A stretch of DNA of 58,855 bases, taken from a virus. A program made the position numbers and the translations under genes. Positions 2,992-52,546 of this stretch are shown piece by piece. Below the pieces are notes generated by a model. The model saw only the letters and a list, made by a program, of their open reading frames with translations, made no database searches and had not been told where the DNA came from. The stretch's first letter is position 1; every line of letters starts with the position of its first letter. Where the stretch lies: the IMG/VR virus record IMGVR_UViG_3300034095_000928, positions 1-58,855 of that record; one strand, written 5' to 3'.

Positions 2992-4795
2992 ACTCGTCAA
3001 TTTTAGGTGCCGCAACTACGGAATTGTTTATTAACCCATAACTATAATTACTTCCTTCACCAATTAATCTGAAAATAATATCAATATAAGGATAATGTGC
3101 ATTGTTTAAAAATGGGTAATCAACACCAATATTATCATTATCAACATATCCGTAAGGGTATATATCTCTCCAACGAAATTTATTATCATTTTGTGAAAAA
3201 TACGCATAATCAGGTATACCAACCACATTCATGGGATTACCCTCCTCAACATAATCAGAATAAGCCCTAATTTTTACAGGATAAAGTGGTTTATAGTAGT
3301 AACCCTTGCAATTATCTCCAAATGGGTTTGAGTTAGGGGACACTCCAATATTAAAATAATACGGATTAAATCTAAATTTATGATACATATCCGAAATAAC
3401 TCGTTCTTCTTGACTGTAATCATTCCATTCACAATAATCCCCATCAAACACATCACCTTTAGAAGGTGCGTTAACATAAGTAAAAGGTTTACCAGGTATT
3501 CCATACGGTGTGGTATAAGAACCCATAGTAAAATTAGTATTGGAATCGGGATTAGAGTTTCTCCACCAAGTATTTGACGCAGTTGGATTAATATTCAACG
3601 GATGTGTATTGAATTCCCATCCTTGTTTTAACCCATAAAACCCTCCACCAGATTTAGTTAAACCAAATGTCCAACCAAGATACCCTTTCCATATTATTGA
3701 ATAATATAGTTCACTAATCGGTCGTTTATGATTATCAATTATAGTTGACGTATCAATATCATCACTAAATGATGAAGTGTACACAGTGCTACCATTTTTA
3801 ATAGAAATACGACTTTGTTTATTTGGTGATATATTACTACTTATAAGTTTTCTATTAGATTTAAAAATTTGTTGTTCAAATCCTGACTTACCTAAAACAA
3901 TACTATCCTCATCAGTCAATATTTTATGTTGTCTGACATAATATGTCGACATAGTTTCACCACTGTTCGTTATGTCAATTATACGTTTAAATGTACCCGT
4001 TTGATTATTAGTAAAAGTCGTACCCGTAAAACCAACATTATATATATTGAAAATATATTCATTAGTACCATAGAATGGGTCACCTAACGAGTAAACCTGA
4101 AAAGAATCTATACCATCATAATTAAAACTTAATTTAACAAATTCACCAACCGATAAACCATGAGCAACAGGACACCTAAAGGAAATTACAGGTTGAGATT
4201 GGTCACTACCTTGACTAACAACAAATGGTATTCCATCCGAGGATACCCAATTTAACCCAACATTTGCAATTTCATCAAAATATGACATTTTTTTATTATA
4301 TAAATTATCATAAACATAACTCACATAAATCGACCAATTATATGTGTAAGCACTTTTGTTAATGAAATCTAAATGCTTAATATTACCACTATCGTTAGTC
4401 GTATAACCTGAGATATCATTATCAATCCTTACAAAATCAAACTCATAAAATTGTGGAAACCCACTAAATAATACAGTCGAACCACTAGTACATATTTTAT
4501 ACGCTAACGACTTTTCATTTTCATAATATAAACTTGATTTATATGGGTAATAATTTGTGGTTCCCATATACACATTATTAAACAATAAAGACATTTTACT
4601 AATCGGTCTAAATATAGTCGACGCTTGTCTTTCATCATCATATATCTGTTGTAAATCAATACTAATATTTCTATCAAATTCAACATTTTCTTTATATGTT
4701 TGTACTAAAGGTACTTTAAACAATAAATTTAAGTCAGGAGCTGATTTATATCTCAAAGACCCTAATACAACTCTATATTCTATTCTTTCACTCAT
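2984..4795 (-). CDS. Putative baseplate or fibre structural protein (603 aa)
   Basis: Not assigned to a family. The sequence is Tyr/Asn/Ser/Gly-rich, typical of beta-structured phage tail proteins, with an aromatic-rich central part (residues about 370-450, many Trp, Gly and Tyr). No signal peptide or transmembrane segment is seen. The ATG at 4795 shares one base with the stop of the 1631-aa gene, so the two are translationally coupled. In T4 the genes after gp6 encode wedge proteins gp7 and gp8, so a wedge-periphery role is possible, but I see no residue-level similarity to support it. Confidence 0.75.
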   Translation of the reverse strand: MSERIEYRVVLGSLRYKSAPDLNLLFKVPLVQTYKENVEFDRNISIDLQQIYDDERQASTIFRPISKMSLLFNNVYMGTTNYYPYKSSLYYENEKSLAYKICTSGSTVLFSGFPQFYEFDFVRIDNDISGYTTNDSGNIKHLDFINKSAYTYNWSIYVSYVYDNLYNKKMSYFDEIANVGLNWVSSDGIPFVVSQGSDQSQPVISFRCPVAHGLSVGEFVKLSFNYDGIDSFQVYSLGDPFYGTNEYIFNIYNVGFTGTTFTNNQTGTFKRIIDITNSGETMSTYYVRQHKILTDEDSIVLGKSGFEQQIFKSNRKLISSNISPNKQSRISIKNGSTVYTSSFSDDIDTSTIIDNHKRPISELYYSIIWKGYLGWTFGLTKSGGGFYGLKQGWEFNTHPLNINPTASNTWWRNSNPDSNTNFTMGSYTTPYGIPGKPFTYVNAPSKGDVFDGDYCEWNDYSQEERVISDMYHKFRFNPYYFNIGVSPNSNPFGDNCKGYYYKPLYPVKIRAYSDYVEEGNPMNVVGIPDYAYFSQNDNKFRWRDIYPYGYVDNDNIGVDYPFLNNAHYPYIDIIFRLIGEGSNYSYGLINNSVVAAPKIDECE

Positions 4796-42774: not shown

Positions 42775-44544
42775 TTGGAAAATAACGAAATAAAACTTAA
42801 TTTTGAAGTAATTGAAAGGAAAGCTCTTAATATATTGGAAGAATATAATGGTGCTAACAATTTTTTAATTAATTTAAAACAAAAATTCTTAACCAATAAG
42901 AATTTTGTTCCTACACGTTCACAATCAGATTACGTAATATCATACTCAGAAGTAACACCAAAAGTTGCTAAGAAATGGGTCGAAATCGACCCCTATTTTG
43001 CTAAGAAAATTTCTGATGAAAAATTGTATACAACTGTACCTAAAGAAATTTGGGTTGAGAAATTATTAGTTGAGAAAGATAAGGCTTACCATATTTGGGG
43101 TAAAGTATTTTCGGGTGAAACATTACACGACTTTTGGATGCCTAAGGGTGCGTTGATTAAAACACATACAACTGAAAAAGTGATAATTGATTATTCTAAG
43201 TACAGTAATAGACCACCATTAGAACATCAAAAAGAGGCGATTGAGAAATTAGTTGGTACGAGACGTTTTATTTTGGCTGATGATATGGGACTTGGTAAAA
43301 CCACAAGTACAATTATTGCTGCGTTAGAAACGGGGGTTAAAAAGATTTTAATAATTTGTCCTGCGTCTTTGAAAATAAACTGGATGAGGGAGATTGAGAA
43401 CTATACTGACAGAAGTATTTTCATTGCCGAGAATAAAAAATTCTCATTGGAACACGACTTTGTAATTGTTAACTATGATATTCTAAAAAACTTTCACGAA
43501 TTAAAAGGTAAGACAGATTCGTTAATCACTCAATTAAATCCTGAGTTGATTATTATTGATGAGGCTCATTATATCCAAAATGGACAAGCCCAAAGAACTA
43601 AATTGGTTAATCATTTTGTACTAAAAACAAAATATCTTTGGTTGTTGACGGGAACACCAATGACTTCAAGACCAATGAATTACTTTAATTTGTTAAATTT
43701 AATTGAAAGTCCTGTGGCTCAAAATTGGATGGCTTACGCTATTAGATATTGTCAAGGGTATCAATTTAACGCAGGTAAAAGAAAAGTTTGGAATGTTTCA
43801 GGGGCATCTAATTTGGAAGAATTGAGAGATAGAACATCAAGACAAGTTTTGAGACGATTAAAAACTGATGTATTAGATTTACCTGATAAAATTATTACAC
43901 CTGTTTACCTAAAACTTAAATCAAAAGAGTACGAAGCCATGATGGGGGAGTATTACAATTGGTATGAAAATAAAAAAGAAGAATCTTCATCATTAACAAT
44001 ACAATTTAGTAAGTTGATGAAGGTTAGACAAATAATTGCTGAAGAAAAAATAAATACAACTATAGAGTTAGCACAAAATATTATTGACCAAGATAAAAAA
44101 GTAATCATCTTCACAAATTTTACCGACACATTACAAAAAATATATCAACATTTTGGGAAAGATGCCGTTTATTTAGATGGTTCTTGTAGTAAACCTCATC
44201 GCCAACATGCGGTTGACCAATTCCAAGAGAACAATAAAATTAAAGTGTTTGTGGGGAATTTAAAAGCTGCGGGTGTCGGTATTACTCTCACCGCTGGTGA
44301 GGCTTGTATAATGAATGACTTATCATTTGTTCCATCGGACCACCAACAGGCTGAAGATAGAGCATACAGGTTCGGTCAAAAAAATTCAGTGTCCATTTAT
44401 TACCCAATATTTGAAAACTCTATCGAAGGTGCTATATACGATATTTTATCAAATAAGAAGAATATTATCGACACTGTTATGGGTGATAACATAGACCGTG
44501 GTGATATTGTTCAAGAAATAATGAATCGTATACTCATTAAGTGA
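42775..44544 (+). CDS. SNF2/SWI2-family helicase-like ATPase
   Basis: Superfamily 2 dsDNA translocase. Motif I is L-A-D-D-M-G-L-G-K-T (167-176), motif Ia ILIICPASLKINWMREI, motif II D262-E-A-H, motif III WLLTGTPM, motif IV/V VIIFTNFTD and KVFVGNLKAAGVGITLTAGE, and motif VI QAEDRAYRFGQ. These are hallmarks of SNF2 (SMARCAL1/HepA-like) proteins. SMARCAL1-type enzymes anneal and reverse forks; T4 uses the SF2 helicase UvsW (587 aa) for such work, and this 589-aa protein may take that place. The start is TTG, since no ATG precedes the conserved part and a stop lies just upstream. It is the first gene of the plus-strand block, behind a late-type motif. Confidence 0.92.
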   Translation: MENNEIKLNFEVIERKALNILEEYNGANNFLINLKQKFLTNKNFVPTRSQSDYVISYSEVTPKVAKKWVEIDPYFAKKISDEKLYTTVPKEIWVEKLLVEKDKAYHIWGKVFSGETLHDFWMPKGALIKTHTTEKVIIDYSKYSNRPPLEHQKEAIEKLVGTRRFILADDMGLGKTTSTIIAALETGVKKILIICPASLKINWMREIENYTDRSIFIAENKKFSLEHDFVIVNYDILKNFHELKGKTDSLITQLNPELIIIDEAHYIQNGQAQRTKLVNHFVLKTKYLWLLTGTPMTSRPMNYFNLLNLIESPVAQNWMAYAIRYCQGYQFNAGKRKVWNVSGASNLEELRDRTSRQVLRRLKTDVLDLPDKIITPVYLKLKSKEYEAMMGEYYNWYENKKEESSSLTIQFSKLMKVRQIIAEEKINTTIELAQNIIDQDKKVIIFTNFTDTLQKIYQHFGKDAVYLDGSCSKPHRQHAVDQFQENNKIKVFVGNLKAAGVGITLTAGEACIMNDLSFVPSDHQQAEDRAYRFGQKNSVSIYYPIFENSIEGAIYDILSNKKNIIDTVMGDNIDRGDIVQEIMNRILIK

Positions 44545-44562: not shown

Positions 44563-44570
44563 TATTTATA
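44563..44570 (+). promoter_or_regulatory. Late-promoter motif for the SOD-nuclease gene
   Basis: TATTTATA on the plus strand, 16 bases before the ATG at 44587, in the 42-base gap after the SNF2 stop. Confidence 0.65.
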
Positions 44571-44586
44571 GTATTATAATAAGATT

Positions 44587-46116
44587 ATGAAAACATTAGA
44601 AGATAAAGTCAAAGTACTGACTGAAAATATTAAAAAAGAAGACGCCAAACGAACTTTACTTAGTGAAGCTAAAAAAATCGGTATAGAAAAATTACCATAT
44701 TCTTACTCTGCCTTGAAAAATTTCATTGATTCGGAAACAATGGATTTTCACTACAACAAACATTATAAAGGATATGTTAAAAAATTAAACGACGCATTAT
44801 CTAAGAAAGATTATGGTGATGTTGAACTTGAGGAGATAATTAAACGTATTGGTAAGTACAACAAAACAATACGAAATAATGCGGGTGGTGCTTTTAACCA
44901 CGCGTTGTTTTGGAAAATGTTATCCCCAAAAGAACAAGAATGTAGTGGACCAATTTTAAGGAAAATTAATAGTTCATTTGGTAGTTTAAAAGAATTTAAA
45001 AATAAATTTGAGGAGGTTGCTAAAAATAGATTTGGTTCAGGATGGGTTTGGTTAGTCTTAACTAAACGTAACACTTTAAAAATAATCTCAACACCAAATC
45101 AAGATAACCCATTAATGAATGTTATTCGAAATGGTGGTTATCCATTACTTGGTTTAGATTTGTGGGAACATTCTTATTATTTAAAGTATCGTAACAAGAG
45201 AGATGAATACATCCATAATTTTTGGAAATGTGTTAATTGGGAATTTGTTAATGAATTACTTAAAATGAAAACTAAAACAACTATTAACGAAAATTTTAAA
45301 TTGAAACGAATTATTAATGAAGGTGTGTCTGAAAGATGTAGTCGAGGTGAAGTTCAATTATATCGAAATTTATTTAACACCAATAAGTTTGTGAAGAATA
45401 TTTACAGATACGGTGTTGAGAAAATTTTAAGTGAAGTTTTTCCCGATAATTATTATGAAAAAGACGCTTATGGACCAAATCAAATGTTAGGAATATATGA
45501 TTTTGAACAAAAAGGTAGGTCGGTGATAAATAAAATGAATACAAATTATGAAGTCTTTTGTGTTTTATTAAACGACATTAATATCGTTATGGAAAAATTG
45601 GGTAAACCTAAAATTACTTTTAAAAATAAATCCGTAGGTGAACAAATTAATGAAGCGAAAAGATTAATTAGTGTAGCTAATGAATTTAAAACAAGGATTT
45701 TTTCATTATCATCAGGGACTTTTGAAAATATTATGGTCACACTTGGTAGTACTAACTCACTTGGCGAATTAACTGAGATAAAAGTTGTTGAGATTCTTAA
45801 AAAAGAATACGGTGATAAAAATGTTGAAAAAATTGGTGAACTTGGTAATACTGTTGATGCGATTGACGGTATTGACTGTGAAGTTAAAATTGGTGATGAA
45901 ATTAAAACCGCACAAATTAAACCATATAAGTCCTATGATTTAGTTGATGGGTTTTATAAAATGTTAGATACTGGTCAAGTTAATCCGTATAAAACGGATT
46001 GGTTAATTTTTTCTAAAAATAATAAAGACGCTATGATATTTGATAATAACGGTATTAAGATAGTTAAAGGTAATTATTTAATACCTGAAATTAATCTTAT
46101 TAAACATATTTATTAG
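44587..46116 (+). CDS. Mn-superoxide dismutase fused to a PD-(D/E)XK nuclease-like domain (509 aa)
   Basis: Residues about 35-228 are a complete Mn/Fe superoxide dismutase. Metal ligands are H55, H105, D191 and H195 (motifs DFHYNKHYKGYV, NNAGGAFNHALFW, GLDLWEHSYYLKY), with gateway H59 and Y63. GG at 100-101 and Q172 in STPNQDNPLM indicate the Mn type. A helical linker (230-375) leads to residues 385-500 of PD-(D/E)XK type: helix with E394/E397, D424, D427 and D430 in VDAIDGIDCEV, then Q443-I-K445. The fusion is uninterrupted. LLSE-A at 27/28 and INE-G at 245/246 match the (L/I)xE-(A/G) consensus of T4-type prohead proteases, flanking the SOD. A late motif and the position before gp13 suggest a packaged virion protein. 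Confidence 0.88.
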   Translation: MKTLEDKVKVLTENIKKEDAKRTLLSEAKKIGIEKLPYSYSALKNFIDSETMDFHYNKHYKGYVKKLNDALSKKDYGDVELEEIIKRIGKYNKTIRNNAGGAFNHALFWKMLSPKEQECSGPILRKINSSFGSLKEFKNKFEEVAKNRFGSGWVWLVLTKRNTLKIISTPNQDNPLMNVIRNGGYPLLGLDLWEHSYYLKYRNKRDEYIHNFWKCVNWEFVNELLKMKTKTTINENFKLKRIINEGVSERCSRGEVQLYRNLFNTNKFVKNIYRYGVEKILSEVFPDNYYEKDAYGPNQMLGIYDFEQKGRSVINKMNTNYEVFCVLLNDINIVMEKLGKPKITFKNKSVGEQINEAKRLISVANEFKTRIFSLSSGTFENIMVTLGSTNSLGELTEIKVVEILKKEYGDKNVEKIGELGNTVDAIDGIDCEVKIGDEIKTAQIKPYKSYDLVDGFYKMLDTGQVNPYKTDWLIFSKNNKDAMIFDNNGIKIVKGNYLIPEINLIKHIY

Positions 46117-46168: not shown

Positions 46169-47293
46169 ATGTCAGTAATCCCCGAACCAGAAAGAAGTTC
46201 CCTATATAAGAAAATAAGACATATATTGGGAGCACCTGTTCGTTCAGTCGAATTAGATGATGAACAGATGGACACATTATTGGAATTTTCAATTGATGAC
46301 TATTCCGAACAAGTACAAAATTTTTTAATCGAGTCACAATGGCCTTCTTTATACAATCTTAATCTTGACACACAATCATTATCAAGAGCGTTCATTTCTA
46401 AAAGTTTAGATTTTGAAAATCGTTATACTTACGCATACTCCAAAATAGTTGGGTTACAAGCGGGAGGTGATTGGGAACTTAAAAAAGATTATATTCAGTT
46501 AAAAGACAATCAACAAAGTTATGAAGTACCTGCGGACAGAGAGATTAATGAATTGTTGTGGTTTACACCGTCAGAATTAAATAATACAATGTTTGACCCT
46601 TGGTCTTTCGGAGCACTTGGTGCTGGTGGTGGTCTTGGTGGTGCGGGTGGTTTAGCACAAATGGGTATGTCAGGTTCTTACCTTATGGCTCCCGCTTTTG
46701 ATATGTTATTAAGAATGCAAGAAATCAATATACAAAGAAGAATTATTGGTGGTGATTTAACATATACAATTACGGCATTACCAGGCGGTAAAAAATCTTT
46801 AAATTTAATGAACACTCCTGGTGGTAAATTTGATTTTGGTAATGCTAATTTGATGAGAGGTAAAGTTTGGTATCACTATTATGATACATCACAAGGTGGT
46901 AGAGATAAATGTTTAGCTGATAATCCTGACATTATTAAATTACCATCGGACGTACCATTCAATAAAATGTCTTGGACCGAATTGAATAATCCTGCTCAAG
47001 TTTGGGTAAGACGTTGGTTTGTTGCTTCCTGTAAAGAAACGTTATCTAAAGTTCGTGGGAAATATAGTGGTAATTTAAAAACACCTGATTCAGAATTAAC
47101 AATGGACTACCAATCTTTGGCTACCGAAGCTAAAGATGAAAAAACAAAATTAATTGATGAATTAACGGGAGCTGAAGGACGACTAACAAGATTAAAACCT
47201 GATAAAGTAATGGAACGTGAGGCACTACTAGCTGAAAATTTAAATAAACAATTGAAGTACCGAGCAATGCCGAGACAAATATACGTAATTTAA
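46169..47293 (+). CDS. gp13: Neck protein, T4 gp13-like
   Basis: Forms the neck ring on the portal to which the tail attaches. The N-terminus (RHILGAPVRSVELDDEQMDTLLEFSIDDYSE) and especially the C-terminal half are characteristic: KMSWTELNNPAQVWVRRWFVASCKETLSKVRGKYSGNLKTPDSELTMD, then SLATEAKDEKTKLIDEL. The length is 374 aa against 309 in T4; the extra length includes a Gly-rich loop (residues about 149-165, GALGAGGGLGGAGG). It lies on the plus strand, opposite to gp14/gp15 and the tail genes. Confidence 0.88.
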   Translation: MSVIPEPERSSLYKKIRHILGAPVRSVELDDEQMDTLLEFSIDDYSEQVQNFLIESQWPSLYNLNLDTQSLSRAFISKSLDFENRYTYAYSKIVGLQAGGDWELKKDYIQLKDNQQSYEVPADREINELLWFTPSELNNTMFDPWSFGALGAGGGLGGAGGLAQMGMSGSYLMAPAFDMLLRMQEINIQRRIIGGDLTYTITALPGGKKSLNLMNTPGGKFDFGNANLMRGKVWYHYYDTSQGGRDKCLADNPDIIKLPSDVPFNKMSWTELNNPAQVWVRRWFVASCKETLSKVRGKYSGNLKTPDSELTMDYQSLATEAKDEKTKLIDELTGAEGRLTRLKPDKVMEREALLAENLNKQLKYRAMPRQIYVI

Positions 47294-50626: not shown

Positions 50627-52546
50627 TTAACTTGCCACATCTGTAATTAACAGTGTATCAGTTGAGTCGTAATATGATAGTCTAGGTTGAGCATCACTTC
50701 TTAAAAATATAGTACAATTATAGTTAGCGTATACGTGAGTTGATAAACTAAAATTTACAGAATTTAAACCAAATTTAACTTCGTTTAATTGGAAATCATT
50801 ACCTATTGTGTTAGAGTAAAAATTGTCAGTAATATTATTATTATAAAAATATTCACCAATATTATTATTATAAAAATAATTACCTATTTTATTACCTTGA
50901 CTAACACTATTACCAAAACCAAAATCATTATTAATGAGATTAGAATAGAAATAATTTCTAATTTCATTATATGAGAAGTAATTAGCGATATTATTAGAAT
51001 AGAAATCATTACCTATCTCATTATATTGAAAATTACCAGAAATAACATTACTATAAAAACTATCCCCTATTCTATTTTTAGAGAAATTGTATGAGCCAAT
51101 AGTTAAATTGGTCCCGATAGTATTATTTTCAAAAACGTGTTCAATAGTATTTTCGTAGAAATTTGAATATACGGTATTACCATTATATCCGTTACCAATT
51201 AAATTACGATTATAAGTTGAGTAACTTTCATTATTATTATACCCATTACCAATATCATTATTATAGAAATCGTTATAGATTTTATTATCATTAAATTGGT
51301 TTCCTATTTCATTATTTTGAAAATCTCCATTAGTCCAAACATTATTGTTAAAGTCGTTCCCAATATTATTTCTATAAAAAGAACCACCAATTAGGATATT
51401 AAAATCAAAATCACTACCAATTCGATTATTATTAAAATTAGAGGTGATATAGTTGTTATTAAAATTTTCCCCAATTATATTACCGTCAAAATCATCATTC
51501 GTTGAGTTATTATAAAATCCATCACCAATTTGATTATTATCACAATCATCATTAAATGTGTTATTATAAGAACCGTTACCGATGGTGTTGTTTCTAAATG
51601 AACCTTCTAATAATACATTATTTGCCTGTAAAAAATCCCCAGTACCAAATTCTAAATGTAAATTAGAATAGTTACCAATATAGTTATTAACCGCCCCACC
51701 ATCATCAATAGCGTCACCAAATGTTGTGTATTCGTAAACTTGATTTTGGTTTATGTTAGGTTGGTAATAACTCATTATACCATCATTATTTCCAAAATAA
51801 TAAGGTGAATCTGTAGTTTCATTTATTGTTACACCTGATATAATTGCTATAGAATCACTCTCAACTGATATAACTTCAAAAAATGAAGGATTTAAATTTC
51901 GTACTGAAACAATTGACCCCGTTGTAAAAGTTGAATTAAATGTTGTGCCCGTGTTACCATATAACACGGCAGTTGTTCCTGTTAAACCACTTATCCCAAC
52001 AAGACCACTTAATGGACTATCTTCGTCATATGAATATCCGTTATATCTTTTAAATAAAATACTTCTGTTATCATAGTCAGTTCTATTATTAAAGTTATCA
52101 ATTCTTTCAGTGATTCTACCTTTTGCAGGACTACTAGTTACTTCAGTTGTATTCCAAGTTATGTCGTATGTTATTTTATCATTAGGGTATAATGTTGAAT
52201 ATACGGTAGGAGAAAATCCTGTTGTAGATATTGCCAATAATAAAATTGGCTCTGTTGTTCCTGTTTTATAGTTACCCGTTGTTATTGGGGTTTTAGTATT
52301 ATCATAATTTGGTTGGTCGTAACACGTTTGGAAGTCAGTCATTAAGTAATAACTTCCAGCGGTTAGTGTTCCACCTGTGGCGAATGAATATAACTCATCG
52401 TAAGTACCTTCGTTATAGTTTGAATTAGTGAACGCAGAATATGATATATGGTATGTATCACCACTCAATTCTACGGGAAATAATGTATCCGTTGTTACTC
52501 CCGAAAGATATGTTAATTCCCCAATTGTTTTTCCTGTTAGTGCCAT
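50627..52546 (-). CDS. Asn-rich beta-solenoid tail fibre/spike-like protein (639 aa)
   Basis: The N-terminal half (to about 315) starts GKTIGELTYLSGVTTDTLFPVEL, like fibre proteins that attach to a baseplate. The C-terminal half (about residues 315-590) consists of dozens of short repeats of the form N-N-x-I-G-x-x-F-x/Y-N-N, each about 10-11 residues, with stacked Asn, Ile and aromatic positions. This is a pattern of a right-handed or pentapeptide-like beta-solenoid. Such solenoids form rigid shafts or receptor-binding spikes. The last 45 residues are non-repetitive and could be a cap. It has its own late motif and terminator and follows the Thr-repeat gene. Confidence 0.8.
   Translation of the reverse strand: MALTGKTIGELTYLSGVTTDTLFPVELSGDTYHISYSAFTNSNYNEGTYDELYSFATGGTLTAGSYYLMTDFQTCYDQPNYDNTKTPITTGNYKTGTTEPILLLAISTTGFSPTVYSTLYPNDKITYDITWNTTEVTSSPAKGRITERIDNFNNRTDYDNRSILFKRYNGYSYDEDSPLSGLVGISGLTGTTAVLYGNTGTTFNSTFTTGSIVSVRNLNPSFFEVISVESDSIAIISGVTINETTDSPYYFGNNDGIMSYYQPNINQNQVYEYTTFGDAIDDGGAVNNYIGNYSNLHLEFGTGDFLQANNVLLEGSFRNNTIGNGSYNNTFNDDCDNNQIGDGFYNNSTNDDFDGNIIGENFNNNYITSNFNNNRIGSDFDFNILIGGSFYRNNIGNDFNNNVWTNGDFQNNEIGNQFNDNKIYNDFYNNDIGNGYNNNESYSTYNRNLIGNGYNGNTVYSNFYENTIEHVFENNTIGTNLTIGSYNFSKNRIGDSFYSNVISGNFQYNEIGNDFYSNNIANYFSYNEIRNYFYSNLINNDFGFGNSVSQGNKIGNYFYNNNIGEYFYNNNITDNFYSNTIGNDFQLNEVKFGLNSVNFSLSTHVYANYNCTIFLRSDAQPRLSYYDSTDTLLITDVAS
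50770..51600 (-). repeat. Degenerate short tandem repeats encoding the solenoid
   Basis: AT-rich imperfect repeats of about 30-33 bases (plus-strand themes such as attattattataaaaat) encode the NNxIGxxFYNN units. Repeat identity is higher at protein than at DNA level, indicating old duplication under selection. Confidence 0.75.

Follow-up and report, generated by a model that had tools for sequence, protein, structure and literature searches.

A probable head-cargo polyprotein joining a superoxide dismutase to a predicted nuclease in an uncultured phage

A gene in the viral window analysed here (the whole stretch of DNA under study, 58 855 nucleotides) encodes in a single chain a short leader, a superoxide dismutase (SOD) and a predicted nuclease, with prohead-protease-type sites at the joins. 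We consider it likely that this chain belongs to a jumbo myovirus infecting freshwater Bacteroidetes and serves it as head cargo, a polyprotein that is cut by an S77 protease and probably ejected with the DNA. This reading is drawn from the identities of the domains, the position of the sites at the joins, the loss and swapping of modules among relatives, and the protease and capsid motif found in these relatives.

What we infer of packaging, cleavage, ejection and enzyme roles can be put as a series of steps. The 509-residue polyprotein would be synthesized late. Its N-terminal leader would bring it into the prohead, where a T4-type (S77) prohead protease would remove that leader by cutting after E27; a cut after E235 and/or E245 would free the SOD from the nuclease. 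Both enzymes would remain in the head and most likely be ejected with the DNA; the SOD would keep superoxide from harming the infection, and the PD-(D/E)xK nuclease would act on DNA, be it that of the host, that of a competitor or replication intermediates. The features concerned are these:

42775-44544, + strand: SNF2-type helicase, conserved upstream neighbour (Pfam 4e-32; phrog_62, 2e-110)
44563-44570, + strand: late-type upstream motif TATTTATA, an 8-mer 33-fold enriched upstream of genes
44587-46116, + strand: SOD–nuclease fusion gene, one ORF with an ATG start, 509 aa, no internal stop
44587-44667, + strand: leader, residues 1–27, ending in site 1 (LLSE27/A28)
44659-44667, + strand: site 1, L25-S26-E27/A28, [L/I]xE preceding the SOD (48/48 non-redundant relatives)
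44686-45255, + strand: Fe/Mn superoxide dismutase module, residues 34–223 (Pfam; PDB 6gsc; Foldseek 1e-15)
45283-45291, + strand: site 2a, I233-N-E235/N236, E235 in 40/40
45313-45321, + strand: site 2b, I243-N-E245/G246, E245 in 39/40
45322-46113, + strand: PD-(D/E)xK-like nuclease module nucA, residues 246–509, putative catalytic E397, D430, Q443 and K445
46169-47293, + strand: neck (head-tail adaptor Ad2), conserved downstream neighbour (phrog_211, 4e-10)

The fused gene, its setting and its two enzyme domains

The preliminary description had reported a single frame joining an SOD to a nuclease-like C-terminus, and had asked for a survey of related phage genomes. Both the fusion and its sites recur across relatives: the full-length architecture was found in 80/80 kept IMG/VR loci in a first search, a count that is a lower bound (at least 80 loci). 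Since the same architecture stands in all of these loci, a sequencing error merging two genes was ruled out, and the fusion is genuine. Bacteroidota loci with long matches, considered as cellular copies of the fusion, turned out to be tandem SOD genes instead. Relative to locus L095, the SOD and the nuclease are under purifying selection (dN/dS of 0.08 and 0.19, respectively), which is not the case for the leader (dN/dS of 1.12).

A late motif and a position ahead of the neck gene had also been described, and both are borne out. Indeed, TATTTATA lies at most 60 nt upstream of 9 of the 38 window genes, against 0.27 expected, and is possibly a late-promoter element of this phage group, while the gene that follows the fusion was matched to head-tail adaptor Ad2. 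The order SNF2 helicase, fusion, neck, small gene and opposite-strand DNA polymerase is kept in the relatives examined. In locus L102 (3483-5852), the SNF2 helicase is apparently interrupted by an intein-like sequence (beginning GKCEPKNNKVFTPNGRKKIGDLKVGDNV), and in the window the DNA polymerase gene adjoins a gene (50627-52546) for a 639-aa protein with short Asn/Ile-rich repeats. Relatives carry a bS21 gene near the protease gene (on the opposite strand to it in contigs G010 and G017), and this groups them with a known clade, the bS21 phages whose hosts are freshwater Bacteroidetes (PMC9723584). This placement agrees with the closest cellular SODs, which are mostly from Bacteroidota.

The complete MnSOD announced in the preliminary description is present. 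Both Pfam domains were detected (Sod_Fe_N at residues 34–113, 1.5e-23; Sod_Fe_C at 121–223, 4.5e-39), and the best solved relative is the MnSOD of Sphingobacterium (6gsc, E=5e-58). Alignment to this structure gives H55, H105, D191 and H195 as metal ligands, H59/Y63 as gateway residues and Q172 as the Mn-type second-sphere Gln, all of them invariant in 23 relatives. On these sequence grounds, the module is an Fe/Mn superoxide dismutase with predicted activity. The SOD part of the full-length model is poor, with a thin alignment behind it, so that the fold search serves as a check only.

For residues 246–509, comparison with Pfam, PHROGs and PDB sequences brought up nothing convincing; a marginal PADLOC match was obtained (E=0.004), and the domain was absent from cultured phages at E<5. 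Structure prediction and fold search, the checks proposed for the PD-(D/E)XK-like C-terminus, both favour a nuclease. A nucA model built from 40 relatives (pLDDT 89.7, pTM 0.79) retrieved with Foldseek a PDB list led by I-Ssp6803I (the best match, E=0.012), NhoI and archaeal Hjc resolvases, and the 27 leading matches were all PD-(D/E)xK enzymes (probability 0.3–1.0, mostly above 0.7). As the E-values are modest, the assignment rests on the unanimity of this list together with the motif: next to the core fold, the putative catalytic D430, Q443-x-K445 (the QxK variant) and the helix Glu E397 are invariant in 40 aligned rows (E397 also in a set of 23). It is thus well supported that the modelled domain folds like PD-(D/E)xK nucleases, and we predict that it is a nuclease.

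Sites at the joins and the exchange of modules

Two sites had been noted previously, LLSE-A at residues 27/28 and INE-G at 245/246. Both exist, and a third, I233-N-E235/N236, had been overlooked. Among 40 non-redundant fusions, M1 and E27 alone are invariant in the leader, and position 25 is L or I; E235 and E245 usually have L or I two positions before them, and the remainder of the linker varies. Site 1 reads [LI]xE in 48/48 non-redundant SOD proteins of all architectures. Counted per 100 aa, [LI]xE[AGSMQTN] reaches 8.7 at junction 1 and 4.5 at junction 2, versus 0.33 in the cargo and 0.02 in the SOD. The relatives are kin by descent, so these site counts are not independent trials, and the argument rests on the contrast with neighbouring variable positions. 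Site 2b is missing from one fusion (L169). Site 1 is followed by Met in 36/40 relatives and by Ala in the window protein; this Met may be the ancestral start codon of the SOD, which would fit an intact SOD gene having been inserted after a leader. Taken together, the sequences give good support to the view that the (L/I)xE sites are functional separators between modules.

The same locus shows what happens at these sites when modules disappear. A nuclease-only search returned 76 proteins, of which 32 lack an SOD and are built as leader-[LI]xE-nuclease. Leader, site and nuclease are clearly kept in 13/14 SOD-less proteins, the site of L148 being degenerate, and in an SOD-less genome the leader was recovered as a separate match by profile search (E=6e-5). 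On the nuclease tree, branches with good support require the SOD state to have changed three times independently. L163 still has the leader and site 1, then some nine residues from the beginning of the SOD, followed by site 2b and the nuclease; by its sequence this protein is a deletion scar holding both sites.

Modules are also exchanged. At the same genomic place, L340 encodes SOD-nucB-nucB (873 aa) and L347 and L349 encode zincin-SOD-nucB; according to profile comparison with nucA (E=3.5e-10), nucB is its distant relative. Other sets at this locus are zincin-SOD-nucC and zincin-SOD-moduleK, where nucC is suspected, from its motif, to be a nuclease. An N-terminal HExxH module occurs in ten non-redundant relatives and is absent from the window protein; it was also seen as a separate 129-aa gene (G010, 3295-3684; 60% identical to L347). 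Among the architectures that end with the SOD, no site follows it in three non-redundant proteins (L376, L394 and L417), and an LxE persists behind it in L374 and in the L353/L355 type.

Some modules stand alone as well. ModuleK is found in neighbouring genes (67–71% identical) with the leader MKIIISENQYKLIKE, and nucB occurs as MKITISEGQYKILSE-nucB (30–34% identical; L303 4104-5060, the same as L260 1204-2160), a gene sitting between the prohead protease and scaffold genes in the head cluster of G017. The leaders of both are short and end in IKE or LSE, and alignment by eye places LNE/S of the polyprotein with IKE/N of the moduleK leader. In L373 (3086-6567), four moduleK-type genes with MKIII-like leaders flank a moduleK-bearing SOD polyprotein. 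The logic of a polyprotein, whose modules are lost or swapped while the sites stay, is well supported by these sequence comparisons.

Prohead protease, leaders and the competing readings

The sites had been assigned to the consensus of T4-type prohead proteases, and the genes of relatives agree with this. A T4-type S77 prohead protease (PF03420) was identified in five long relatives (G010, G013, G015, G016 and G017), and their capsid protein carries FLINE/A or HLINE/A near its N-terminus. T4 gp23 has such a motif at its maturation cut. The 58.9-kb record contains neither protease nor capsid genes, both of which are present in the longer relatives. What would be expected of head cargo is found in two places: the N-terminal propeptide ending in L/I-X-E, the motif of T4 gp21 (PMC9026906), in the protein itself, and the S77 protease and capsid motif in relatives.

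Across the whole proteomes of two contigs, [LI]xE[AGSMQT] is 2.7-fold enriched in residues 3–32 (p=3e-13 and 7e-13), and [LI]xD is not enriched there. In two 322-kb relatives, many proteins whose bodies are mostly unrelated begin with such recurring leaders. Dozens of leader-sharing proteins, many of the leaders ending in (L/I)xE, were observed in G010 (the contig of L057; loci L262-L278) and G017 (L297-L313), with the patterns MK[IL][IVL]ITES/ENQY..L.E, MKK.IRLTESDL..[IL]VKR.I.E and MNLQENI.RI..MM; these are candidate head-targeting leaders. A ferritin (Pfam 2e-17) in G010 (51272-51871; L264 13275-13871) has an N-terminal extension ending in VIVE-S and is perhaps another oxidative-stress cargo.

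Three other explanations were weighed. The one that survives best, although we hold it to be unlikely, shares the packaging and cutting and differs in the role of the SOD, which would work within the particle and not in the next host, guarding the packaged genome during its extracellular phase from superoxide made in sunlit, oxic freshwater. The same sites and leader, the rank of the SOD as the most conserved module (dN/dS 0.08) and the freshwater origin of the relatives (bS21 clade, PMC9723584) are consistent with it. However, part of the clade has dispensed with the SOD yet retained the rest, and the partner nucleases and the zincin make sense in the host, not in the particle.

Rather improbable is an ordinary bifunctional enzyme, made in the cell during infection, that joins an auxiliary metabolic SOD to a nuclease; LxE would then reflect linker composition and nothing would be packaged. 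Unlinked SOD genes are indeed known from phages (Pseudomonas Callisto, Vibrio 2.275.O), but the sites cluster at the joins and are invariant within fast-changing sequence, the downstream sites are gone in three lineages where the SOD comes last, and the motif is enriched near N-termini proteome-wide while [LI]xD is not. Very improbable, finally, is a polyvalent protein (Iyer et al. 2017) whose cleavage would fall to a zincin, either its own or a different one of the phage, and not to the prohead protease: a metallopeptidase is usual in such proteins (PMC5512222) and the HExxH module is N-terminal in the ten relatives mentioned, but the window protein and most relatives keep the same sites without a zincin, and the motif is the one seen for the capsid protein and for T4 gp21.

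The reading that we favour is thus that of a polyprotein serving as head cargo, which the prohead protease cuts and which is probably delivered with the DNA. The capsid-targeted polyprotein of the preliminary description gains from the nuclease fold, the sites as separators, the protease of relatives, the late-type motif and the loss and swapping of modules; packaging and ejection stay at the level of a likely proposal, and the actions that it suggested, against a host oxidative burst and on host or rival DNA, are hypothetical. Several points speak against the favoured reading. The record itself lacks the protease. A nuclease stored beside packaged DNA must be held inactive. Site 1 is followed in most relatives by Met, unlike the capsid site, which has Ala after the Glu. 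Lastly, the LxE persisting after the SOD in L353/L355 and L374, the missing site 2b of L169 and the degenerate site of L148 fit less well with sites acting as separators.

A broader idea, to which we give slightly less than an even chance, is that the prohead protease could be a general processor of cargo and the polyprotein cassette a platform for delivering effectors with interchangeable payloads. The dozens of unrelated proteins with short leaders ending in (L/I)xE, and the exchange of SOD, zincin and nuclease between sites at one locus, would point in this direction.

Relation to known systems

Jumbo phages of the Pseudomonas PA5oct/Callisto group and Vibrio phage 2.275.O likewise encode members of the SOD family. 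These stand-alone SODs differ in being 182–189 aa long, about 28% identical and not fused to a nuclease. The entry A0A6J5L953 (501 aa, uncultured Caudovirales phage, annotated as superoxide dismutase) is closer, with a TM of 0.93 and 36% identity over the whole nuclease domain; this structural match suggests that UniProt probably contains the same fusion already, named as an SOD and nothing else. No description of its nuclease part or sites was found in the literature searched (open-licence papers).

Polyvalent proteins (PMC5512222) share disparate enzymatic domains, late-gene neighbours, domain swapping and, in sister architectures, a zincin. The window protein has at least two disparate enzymatic domains near virion genes and lacks a metallopeptidase of its own; in contrast to polyvalent proteins, prohead-protease-type sites separate the modules, instead of or besides a metallopeptidase. 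Superoxide is absent from the text of the survey of these proteins (Iyer et al. 2017, PMC5512222).

In the open-licence literature searched, no enzyme chain with prohead-protease-type sites and exchangeable modules was found. Each building block has a precedent, be it in phage SODs, in polyvalent proteins or in the internal proteins of T4 with their propeptides; as far as these papers show, the combination is new. It makes the SOD and the nuclease candidates for effectors ejected by uncultured jumbo phages of Bacteroidetes, supplies exact candidate cut sites for testing, and suggests a sequence rule (leader plus L/I-x-E) that could list head cargo from genomes alone.

A close parallel is that of T4, where IPI–III and Alt have in common with the window protein a short N-terminal propeptide and an L/I-X-E site, and whose S77 protease and Gp23-like capsid protein have counterparts in relatives of the window phage. 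The likeness to the T4 internal-protein leader that had been put forward holds for its shortness and its ending in the motif, and does not extend to any demonstrated sequence similarity. Unlike the T4 internal proteins, the present system, known from genes alone, has several enzymes per chain, a site at the joins, and an SOD and a nuclease as cargo. If this reading is correct, a tailed phage would pack several enzymes as one precursor, freed in the head by the maturation protease, in parallel to retroviruses and their polyproteins.
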